Shown here piece after piece: positions 48,735-53,150 of a stretch of DNA of 64,000 nucleotides. The stretch is from Candidatus Sumerlaea chitinivorans (lineage in GTDB: Bacteria; Sumerlaeota; Sumerlaeia; Sumerlaeales; Sumerlaeaceae). The stretch is taken from assembly GCA_003290465.1 (NCBI GenBank), contig CP030759.1, positions 536,672-600,671 on the forward strand, written 5' to 3'. The translations under genes and the position numbers were made by a program. Every line of letters begins with the position of its first letter. The stretch's first letter is position 1. The notes beneath the pieces were generated by a model. That model worked only from the letters and a program-made list of their open reading frames with translations, was not told where the DNA came from and ran no database searches.

Positions 48735-49553
48735 CTACTCGCTGCGAAGGTGAATCCCGTAGCGCTGTGCGCTATCCCTTGCTTCGTCCGTGATGATAGC
48801 GTCTGGTTCGTGCACCAGTTCTTTTGCGCCGCGCGAGGACGCTCGCCATACATCTTCTGCCGTGATAAATTGCCGCCGCTTTTGCGGTCGAACCCGCGCG
48901 AGGCGTTGCGGGGTTTCGTTGATGGGCACATGGAAAGCTTCATCCACAGCCGCTACGAGTTCGCTTGGCGGCACAAAGCGTAATCCAAGCTGTTCCAACG
49001 CGTGAAAGTGGTCTTCCGCAGCTCGCACCAACCGCGGGGGGACCACTGCTTGCCCGAAACAGAACTGGCGCACCGTTGCAAGATCCAGCGCGACTATCAC
49101 CGGTTTGCCGTGTTCCACAAAATGGGAGACCAACTGTGTGGGGATCGAATCCGCAATTCCCACAGCAATCTTCGCCGCCGAGTTTAGGGAGAGTGAGGCG
49201 ATAATGAGCGCATCGCACTGCTTAGAGAGTGTATGGAGCGCCGCTTCTCCGGCGTCCTCGATAAATTCTCGCGCACCTCGAAGCCGGATGCGGGCTCTTT
49301 CTAAGCCCACCAAAACAGCGTAAGATTGGCTTGCGACAACACTGAGCGTGTGGCCGCGGGCGGCGAGTGCTGCACAGTGATCAAATACCGCATCGTCGGG
49401 CTCCCGTGCTCCGCTAAACAGCAGCGCCAAGTGCTTGCGCGTGGCTACACGGAGAGGTGCCTGCGTGCCGTTTTCAAATTCCGACAGCACACGCACCACC
49501 GTCTCACGCACGAGAGTGCGTAATTGTTCCTCGCTAAATCGAGATTCTGCCAT
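48735..49553 (-). CDS. BMC-associated flavoprotein (CoaC/Dfp-like)
   Basis: 272 residues. Residues 7-25 (SEEQLRTLVRETVVRVLSE) form an amphipathic helix like the encapsulation peptides of PduP/EutC-type lumen enzymes. Residues 40-200 match the HFCD/Flavoprotein fold, with the FMN-binding-type stretch LIIASLSLNSAAKIAVGIAD at 116-135 and KPVIVALDLATV. The C-terminal 229-268 segment (FITAEDVWRAS, AIITDEARDSAQRYGI) resembles the ITPLARDxAxxxGI tail seen in other microcompartment proteins. It follows the shell gene by 81 nt on the same strand, separated by a strong hairpin. The enzyme activity is unknown; FMN-dependent decarboxylase or redox chemistry is inferred. Confidence 0.72.
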   Translation of the reverse strand: MAESRFSEEQLRTLVRETVVRVLSEFENGTQAPLRVATRKHLALLFSGAREPDDAVFDHCAALAARGHTLSVVASQSYAVLVGLERARIRLRGAREFIEDAGEAALHTLSKQCDALIIASLSLNSAAKIAVGIADSIPTQLVSHFVEHGKPVIVALDLATVRQFCFGQAVVPPRLVRAAEDHFHALEQLGLRFVPPSELVAAVDEAFHVPINETPQRLARVRPQKRRQFITAEDVWRASSRGAKELVHEPDAIITDEARDSAQRYGIHLRSE

Positions 49554-49567
49554 GACGACCTATATGA

Positions 49568-49601
49568 GTGTGCGGTCCGCCCCCGCGAGCGGACCGCACA
49601 C
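49568..49601 (-). other. Perfect 13-bp intercistronic hairpin
   Basis: GTGTGCGGTCCGC (49568-49580) and GCGGACCGCACAC (49589-49601), eight-nt loop. It lies between the shell gene (stop 49635) and the flavoprotein gene (start 49553). No T-run follows on the minus strand, so it is more likely an mRNA-stabilising or attenuating element than a full terminator. Confidence 0.7.
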
Positions 49602-49634
49602 CTGAACTTTCATGTTGGAAAAATTGCGACTCCC

Positions 49635-49922
49635 TTAGCCTTTGGGGAGGATCTTCTCCAGATCCGAATGCGGCCGCGGAATGACGTGCACGCTGATGAG
49701 TTCCCCGACGCGACGAGCCGCAGCCGCTCCCGCATCTGTCGCCGCTTTCACGGCTCCCACGTCGCCGCGGACCATCACGGTCACCAGTCCGCCGCCAACA
49801 TGTTCTTTCCCAATCAAGCGGACGTTGGCTGCTTTCACCATCGCATCCGCCGCTTCAATGGAACCCACAAGGCCACGCGTTTCAATCAATCCTAATGCGT
49901 TGCCGTAGATCTCCTCTGCCAT
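49635..49922 (-). CDS. Bacterial microcompartment hexameric shell protein (BMC-H)
   Basis: 95 residues from ATG 49922, the length of single-domain PduA/EutM/CcmK proteins; GAGGAGA lies nine nt upstream, which rejects the longer frame to 49940. It has the full family pattern: [20 protein letters not shown], the pore loop [14 protein letters not shown] (VGGG where PduA has IGSG), [14 protein letters not shown], and the edge motif [14 protein letters not shown]. Six copies form a shell tile. No BMC-P or BMC-T gene is near, so the shell must be completed from another locus. Confidence 0.95.
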
Positions 49923-49960: not shown

Positions 49961-49996
49961 CAGTGTCACTGTAGGGACCTGCCGCACGTGTGTCAA
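49961..49996 (-). promoter_or_regulatory. Sigma-70-type promoter of the BMC genes
   Basis: On the minus strand TTGACA (49991-49996) is followed after exactly 17 nt by TACAGT (49968-49973). Transcription would start near 49961, giving a leader of about 39 nt. An 11-nt inverted repeat CAGTG-T-CACTG (49961-49971) overlaps the -10 box and could bind a repressor. Confidence 0.6.
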
Positions 49997-51728: not shown

Positions 51729-51968
51729 ATAAGTGGCGGTCGTCCAAGAATTATTCTTCTGACGCTTGAACTATTCCCGGCCAGACTCTTATCTTCCGCT
51801 TTCCTCTCCCGAGAGCTACTTGTGCGCCGCTTTCCAAAGGCACTTTCCCAAGGTTCTCTGCGCACTACCAATCGAACCCGTGCTCACTTGGTTCCCGTAT
51901 TTTTCTGGATAAAAGTTGCATGTCCGCGGTAATTGCTCGGTCAACATCATGCTCAGGAGGCCATACCT

Positions 51969-53150
51969 ATGCCGCGCCGTGCAGTCATTATCGTACTCGA
52001 CAGTGTCGGAATCGGTGAGTTGCCCGATGCCCACCTTTTTGGCGACGAAGGAAGTAATACGCTCGGCAATCTCTCGCGAGCTTTTCCTGACGGCTTACGC
52101 CTTCCCAACATGGCAAAACTTGGTCTCGGCAACATCGCCGAACTTCGGGGGGTGCCACCGGATCCGCAAGCGATCGGCGGCTGGGGGAAGTGCGCGGAAA
52201 AGAGCATGGCGAAGGATACCACATTAGGGCACTGGGAGATTGCGGGAATCATTTCCGAGAAACCGTTCCCAACGTACCCCAACGGCTTTCCCCCGGAAAT
52301 CATTCAGGAGTTTGAACGGCGCATCGGGCGTGGCACGTTAGGCAATATCCCTGCAAGCGGGACGGAGATCATTCAGAAGCTCGGCGATGAGCACGTCCGC
52401 ACGGGAAAGCCGATTGTCTACACGAGTGCGGATAGCGTCTTCCAAATTGCCGCCCACGAGGAGGTCATTCCGCTGGAAGAACTCTACGAAATGTGCCGGA
52501 TTGCGCGCGAGCTCCTCGATGGTCCGCACCGCGTCGGGCGCGTGATTGCCCGCCCGTTCATCGGAACCTCCGGCAATTACACCCGCACCCGCAACCGACG
52601 TGATTTCTCAGTTCCACCGCCGCGTCCTACCATTCTGGACCGGCTCAAGGAAAATGGATATGCAGTGATTGGCGTGGGCAAAATAGGGGACATTTTTGCC
52701 CACACAGGCCTGACCCACGAAATCCACACCGGAGCTAACGAGAAAGGTATCTTAGCCACCCTTGTCCAGCTCAACGAGGCGCCTGATGGCCTTATCTTTA
52801 CGAACCTTGTGGATACCGACATGATCTACGGGCACCGCAACGACACGGTCGGTTATCGCGCGTCTTTGGAAGAGTTCGATTCCTATCTGCCAAAGATTCT
52901 AAGCGCGCTGCAACCCGAGGATCTGTTGATCATCACGGCCGATCACGGATGCGATCCCACGACACCCAGCACCGACCACTCGCGGGAGTATGTTCCGCTT
53001 CTGGTCTATTCAAAGGCGATGCCGCATGGCGTAAATCTTGGTACCCGCGAAACCTTTGCTGATACCGCCGCAACCATCGCCGAGTTCTTCAATATCGCGT
53101 GGGATGGGCCCGGCACAAGCTACTTGCGGCAGGTGTTGCCCCAACCATAG
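51969..53150 (+). CDS. deoB: Phosphopentomutase
   Basis: 393 residues from ATG 51969, with AGGAGG nine nt upstream. It interconverts ribose-1-/deoxyribose-1-phosphate and the 5-phosphates during nucleoside breakdown or salvage. It is a Mn-dependent alkaline-phosphatase-superfamily enzyme: [16 protein letters not shown] at the N-terminus (with the metal-binding Asp), the GNLSRAFP and [12 protein letters not shown] blocks, and the C-terminal metal site [20 protein letters not shown]. No deoC or nucleoside phosphorylase is beside it. It lies about 2 kb from the BMC genes. Confidence 0.95.

Follow-up and report, generated by a model that had tools for sequence, protein, structure and literature searches.

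The gene under study occupies positions 48735-49553 (minus strand, 272 codons) of a window of 64,000 nucleotides taken from the genome of Candidatus Sumerlaea chitinivorans (CP030759.1, positions 536,672 to 600,671). A preliminary description, made from the sequence alone, had presented its product as a flavoprotein with an encapsulation-peptide-like N-terminus and a C-terminal tail of bacterial microcompartment (BMC) type. The gene directly upstream, on the same strand and separated by a gap of 81 nt, encodes a BMC-H shell protein recognized by the EutM model NF012018 (138 bits, cut-off 133), and purH lies downstream. The following features were delineated.

49968..49996, minus strand: sigma-70-like promoter TTGACA-17-TACAGT ahead of the BMC-H gene (10/12 match; 1 found against 0.5 expected)
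49635..49922, minus strand: gene of the BMC-H shell protein (EutM-like), 95 aa, with ATG at 49922 and AGGAG ahead of it (PF00936, E=6e-30)
49567..49602, minus strand: stem-loop between the BMC-H and flavoprotein genes (MFE -40.8 kcal/mol, z=-5.1)
48735..49553, minus strand: coding sequence of the BMC flavoprotein, 272 aa (PF02441; homologues in 20/40 genomes of the phylum)
49473..49532, minus strand: N-terminal encapsulation-peptide-like helix, residues 8-27 (AlphaFold2 helix; match to the AldDH and DeoC tags; in 19 aligned homologues)
49434..49472, minus strand: flexible linker 1, residues 28-40 (pLDDT <50 at 29-36; mean pairwise identity 0.19)
48936..49433, minus strand: HFCD/PF02441 flavoprotein core, residues 41-206 (PF02441, AlphaFold2, Foldseek)
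49137..49190, minus strand: PASANT-like putative FMN-contact motif SLNSAAKIAVGIADSIPT, residues 122-139 (alignment to AfpA/DmrB and AtHAL3a; motif survey)
48876..48935, minus strand: flexible linker 2, residues 207-226 (pLDDT <50 at 209-223)
48738..48875, minus strand: C-terminal module resembling the EutQ N-terminus, residues 227-272 (hmmsearch against E. coli EutQ 4-46; pLDDT ~93)

The intervals between the BMC-H and flavoprotein genes of L038, L039, L041 and L043 also held strong hairpins, of unrelated sequence; such stem-loops perhaps set a high shell-to-flavoprotein ratio. Neighbours of the gene pair were conserved in L038 and L039. A phosphopentomutase-like gene (named by eye; 51933-53150, plus strand) was located 2 kb from the pair; phosphopentomutase feeds deoxyribose-phosphate aldolase (DeoC) in nucleoside catabolism.

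An AlphaFold2 model built with five relatives (mean pLDDT 82) consisted of a helix (residues 8-27), a disordered linker, a core (residues 41-206, pLDDT ~91), a second disordered linker and a separate C-terminal unit starting at residue 228. The N-terminal helix had been proposed to stand outside the core fold, and the model agreed, with a linker below 50 pLDDT at residues 29-36 and a core beginning at residue 41 only. This arrangement corresponds to that of encapsulation peptides, in which a flexible linker separates a terminal helix (~18 residues expected) from the core.

Terminal elements in common with microcompartment proteins

Three proteins encoded by this genome bear the same kind of tag: the flavoprotein (EEQLRTLVRETVVRVLSE), and the aldehyde dehydrogenase (AldDH) and DeoC (EAKISAIVEEVVRRLKEQ and EELSLIVEEVVRRVTAIL). 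Scored with a profile of AldDH and DeoC tags from which flavoproteins had been left out, the flavoprotein tag obtained 18.6 as compared with -5.6 +/- 4.0 for shuffled sequences, a value reached by 0/20,000 shuffles, and it ranked third among the 161 ORFs examined, below AldDH and DeoC. Its hydrophobic moment was 0.351, and 31% of shuffles were equally high. Of the amphipathic, encapsulation-peptide-like helix described beforehand, the helix and its likeness to cargo tags were thus retained, while amphipathicity alone lay within chance. The tag helix was present in all 19 aligned homologues. Most flavoprotein-bearing genomes had a DeoC with a tagged extension, and this extension was little developed or missing in several genomes devoid of shell genes. 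Since AldDH and DeoC carry the tag of the flavoprotein, the latter is, on sequence grounds, very probably a cargo of a dispersed SPU-like (deoxyribose-phosphate) microcompartment.

The C-terminal tail, previously noted over 14 residues, turned out to be a larger module of ~45 residues in common with EutQ. An hmmsearch profile made from the C-terminal 55 residues of 20 homologues aligned residues 227-269 of the flavoprotein with residues 4-46 of E. coli EutQ at E=7.6e-11, as compared with 0.43 for the best unrelated sequence. It also detected a 94-aa ORF of genome G039 (1.9e-6) and, in a PVM-like locus of genome G021, a class II aldolase (1.5e-5). The link with EutQ was found independently through NCBIfam, with 8/19 members matching. 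Kinship of the module with E. coli EutT was not supported (E=0.86), and among solved structures the module alone had no match of significant E-value. Present in all homologues aligned, it was the best-conserved part of the flavoprotein, with a pairwise identity of 0.41 against a mean of 0.24 for the core. Among the genomes of the phylum, it was encountered only in flavoproteins, in the BMC-type aldolase of G021 and in the 94-aa ORF of G039. The UbiX-like and CoaBC proteins of the same genome were devoid of it, in line with the earlier remark that ordinary CoaC/UbiX-type enzymes lack such a tail.

In Salmonella, EutQ attaches to the shell (EutM/EutL) through residues 9-41 (H1/H2) and to cargo-enzyme tags through residues 62-99, and the connection of cargo with shell requires EutQ (PMC12487888). 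The match of the module to EutQ ended at residue 46, so that the cargo-tag-binding H3/H4 segment was absent; the cupin acetate-kinase domain PF06249 was absent as well, Pfam scans showing only PF02441. Unlike EutQ, the flavoprotein has its module at the C-terminus, an N-terminal tag of its own and a flavoprotein body. These correspondences suggest that it possesses the shell-binding half of EutQ and that its own tag replaces the cargo-binding half. Taken together, the adjoining BMC-H gene, the tag found also on AldDH and DeoC and the EutQ identity of the C-terminal module, three points that had been overlooked there, corroborated the BMC association proposed in the preliminary description.

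In the aldolase of the PVM-like locus (L105:4544-5635, minus strand, in G021), the EutQ-type module is N-terminal and a tag-like helix is C-terminal; tagged AldDH and PduL-like genes lie near the aldolase gene. Additionally, the N-terminal region of EutQ was matched by the NCBIfam EutA model (E=1.6e-9; residues 6-92 of the E. coli protein; L073:4303-5004, minus strand), so that the entire shell-cargo linker segment of EutQ may be present in some EutA proteins.

The flavin-fold core and its relatives

The flavoprotein assignment was confirmed by PF02441, which matched residues 41-156 with 34.4 bits (cut-off 22.7), by the modelled core and by Foldseek, whose top matches were all of HFCD type: DmrB with FMN (3wis) was best (E=1.4e-7), followed by CoaBC, TvaF and UbiX, with EpiD also among the fold matches. 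PF02441 was matched at E<=0.01 by 8/19 aligned family members. The PASANT-like FMN/substrate loop of the protein, SLNSAAKIAVGIAD, lies in a motif region that aligned to SNT/SANT stretches of AfpA/DmrB and AtHAL3a. The pattern SxNxxxK was present in this protein and in 10 others, and an SxN loop with a conserved Lys after it occurred, in exact or near form, in 12 of the 19 aligned sequences. A stretch SxNTxAK..G..D..PT is common to the flavoprotein and DmrB/AfpA (PDB 3wis, 4mwg); however, identity is 20%, DmrB/AfpA have neither tag nor BMC module, and DmrB reduces dihydromethanopterin.

In most members, redox activity of the flavin core is probable, given the retained loop, the redox flavoprotein as closest fold and the need of this genome for another route of NADH re-oxidation. 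Redox activity cannot be the sole function because the loop had degenerated in three sequences (L053, L054, L104) and was altered in L048-L052, with tag and module kept, and because PduS was not detected in the flavoprotein-bearing genomes G031 and G033 (both 94% complete). On account of these same two genomes, a universal dependence of the flavoprotein on PduS was rejected.

The nearest named family was TIGR02536 (eut_hyp, ethanolamine-type BMC flavoproteins), aligned over residues 109-267 and thus covering core and module. It was matched by 12/19 homologues (best 1e-17), but the protein itself scored 31.1 bits, below the curated cut-off of 152.6, and the TIGR model is shorter (207 positions). 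Moreover, TIGR02536 belongs to the ethanolamine BMC type whereas the flavoprotein described here is likely of the deoxyribose-phosphate type.

Distribution and the dispersed microcompartment

Flavoprotein homologues were found in 20 of the 40 genomes of the phylum, and one more genome, G014, was added through its C-terminal module (21/40). Shell genes were present in 20 of these 21 genomes, and five shell-bearing genomes, some of them incomplete, had no flavoprotein (Fisher p=7.5e-6, uncorrected for kinship). In most homologous loci, across divergent families, a BMC-H gene adjoined the flavoprotein gene on the same strand, with a PduL gene inserted between the two in two loci; no recognisable BMC-H was seen beside the flavoprotein in four genomes of one family (L048-L051). 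A profile search of genome contigs with a narrower alignment yielded five MAG loci, all from Candidatus Sumerlaeota/Sumerlaeaceae. The scan of genome contigs with the single protein as query gave no relatives, and the plasmids and phages searched contained no match to the flavoprotein.

The most distant genome, G039, displayed a core fused to DeoC (PF02441-like, 22.5 bits; TIGR00126, 240.7 bits). The contig carries this fusion together with two BMC-P, an RpiB-like protein, a PduT-like BMC-T, PduS, a tagged AldDH, a further BMC-P and a BMC-H, and its gene content identifies it as an SPU-like locus. Downstream of a BMC-H gene of the same genome, the 94-aa protein consists of tag, linker and module without core; its ORF starts with GTG and was a single occurrence.

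Three consecutive BMC domains within one protein of ~295-330 aa were observed at L106:5190-6128 (minus strand, G022), with three PF00936 stretches, and in ORFs of G023, G028, G019 and G002. A search of the open-access literature for shell proteins with this triple-domain layout gave no result; two copies could make one pseudohexamer.

The C. Sumerlaea chitinivorans genome is a single contig of 3.29 Mb over which shell and enzyme genes were spread in many places. BMC-T was located at 0.091 Mb with PduS, the BMC-H of the window at 0.586 Mb, another BMC-H at 0.875 Mb, and BMC-P at 0.906, 1.162 and 2.850 Mb. The CoA-acylating, EutE-type AldDH (630 bits for PRK15398, cut-off 403) was at 1.143 Mb and DeoC at 0.673 Mb. 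PduS, with Nuo51-FMN and 4Fe-4S domains, adjoins the PduT-like BMC-T; a 127-aa protein is encoded directly downstream of both genes (L008:6515-6898, minus strand). An rpiB-like ORF without tag was situated 5.2 kb from the second BMC-H; its homologue in G039 is the RpiB-like gene mentioned above. PduL was absent from the genome and the PF00465 protein examined (iron alcohol dehydrogenase) had no visible tag; consequently, re-oxidation of the NADH from the AldDH reaction must take another route.

A DeoC aldolase and an acylating AldDH, both tagged, are a feature of SPU-type BMCs (Axen 2014; Sutter 2021), with which PduS is a further common point and of which G039 contains a contiguous locus. This genome differs from that type by the dispersal of its genes and by the fact that PduL was not found. 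The main papers on Sumerlaeota were not found to discuss BMC genes.

This phylum was formerly named BRC1. For BRC1, satellite-like BMC loci only had been reported, with isolated shell genes as observed here, and dispersal could not be told from missing sequence (Axen 2014, PMC4207490). The single-contig genome demonstrates that the BMC genes are truly dispersed in this organism and answers the 2014 question for the phylum.

Possible roles of the flavoprotein

Carrying a cargo tag N-terminally and the EutQ shell segment C-terminally, the flavoprotein may clip enzymes to the shell. We give an even chance to the reading that it is a lumenal component of an SPU-like BMC, most likely one that links shell and cargo by way of an FMN-fold body and is probably also redox-active. 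The N-terminal tag helix would join the AldDH and DeoC tags in the cargo core; as H3/H4 of EutQ are absent, linking would have to rely on contacts between tags. The C-terminal module would hold the shell from the lumenal side, probably through the neighbouring EutM-like BMC-H. The core would serve as the linker body. In most members it would probably also be a flavin redox site, supplied with electrons by the NADH of the aldehyde dehydrogenase reaction, rather than a decarboxylase. The same-strand pairing with BMC-H, the co-occurrence with shell genes and the shared tags argue for linking, as do the correspondence of the module with EutQ 4-46 and its confinement in the phylum to three kinds of protein. 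The G039 fusion of core and DeoC, accompanied by a core-less tag-module protein behind BMC-H, and the module being better conserved than a core whose FMN motif decays while tag and module stay, point in the same direction. For the redox part, the closest fold match is a redox flavoprotein, DmrB. However, an ordinary cargo enzyme could just as well carry the tag and the shell-binding tail as two redundant signals for targeting, and linking fits less easily with the L048-L051 loci devoid of an adjoining BMC-H or with the five shell genomes lacking the flavoprotein; the 94-aa ORF of G039, for its part, is GTG-initiated and was seen once.

If the module is such a second targeting signal, the protein would be an encapsulated flavin redox enzyme, an FMN cargo passing electrons between lumenal NADH and PduS/PduT in the shell. 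This is possible, though we consider it rather doubtful. The conserved SxNxxxK of this and other members, the same DmrB match and the PduS gene beside the PduT-like BMC-T are consistent with it, and in a genome with no PduL and no tag on the PF00465 protein examined, lumenal NADH needs another route of re-oxidation; an electron-shuttle role had in fact been proposed for BMC PF02441 proteins in 2014 (PMC4207490). It is at odds with the flavoproteins of G031 and G033, where PduS was not detectable, and with the tags and modules kept where the FMN motif was lost or altered. A BMC decarboxylase of CoaC/EpiD/UbiX type, one of the roles suggested initially, is very improbable. The PF02441 core, the fold matches to CoaBC, TvaF, EpiD and UbiX, and the Rossmann-like fold and PASANT-like loop held in common with CoaC/CoaBC, EpiD and UbiX would favor it, but the catalytic HFCD His was not conserved (the H107 position was occupied by L, W or other residues across the aligned family) and PxMNxxM was absent from all 19 aligned sequences, which makes decarboxylation unlikely and led us to reject a CoaC-type enzyme. 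In addition, the SPU pathway, made up of DeoC and acylating AldDH, has no decarboxylation step, and the flavoprotein differs from these enzymes by its two added terminal BMC elements. It is scarcely credible that a non-encapsulated housekeeping flavoprotein came to lie near a BMC gene by chance. The other neighbours (purH and an AI-2E-type transporter) are indeed of the housekeeping sort and most BMC genes of the genome are unclustered, but the BMC-H pairing conserved over divergent families, the co-occurrence with shell genes, the shared tags and the EutQ module all speak against such a coincidence.

That PF02441 flavoproteins occur in BMC loci, EUT2B/2D and GRM3 among them, and may act there as electron shuttles was reported in 2014 (PMC4207490). 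An electron-transfer role in a BMC is thus not the novelty that it was first taken for, and it is the two-ended architecture, with the linker role that it implies, that appears to be new. In the open-access literature we found neither an EutQ segment on a flavoprotein nor a flavoprotein proposed as linker, which is not proof of novelty. Attachment of cargo to shell is known for a few BMCs only, through CcmN, CsoS2, PduB and EutQ (PMC12487888). These flavoproteins have been a puzzle of BMC loci since 2014 and the shell-binding segment of EutQ was defined in 2025; its presence on a flavoprotein encoded beside a likely shell partner makes the puzzle directly testable. The two-ended design also suggests a portable means of loading engineered shells.

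In this poorly known phylum, the flavoprotein very probably resides in a protein-walled organelle for sugar phosphate breakdown. It is conceivable, at somewhat less than an even chance, that the linker organises a BMC encoded at scattered chromosomal sites, that the module serves catabolic BMCs in general as a movable anchor to the shell, and that the core is dispensable in some lineages. If true, one movable anchor would be common to EutQ, BMC flavoproteins, a PVM-type aldolase and a stand-alone tag-module protein.
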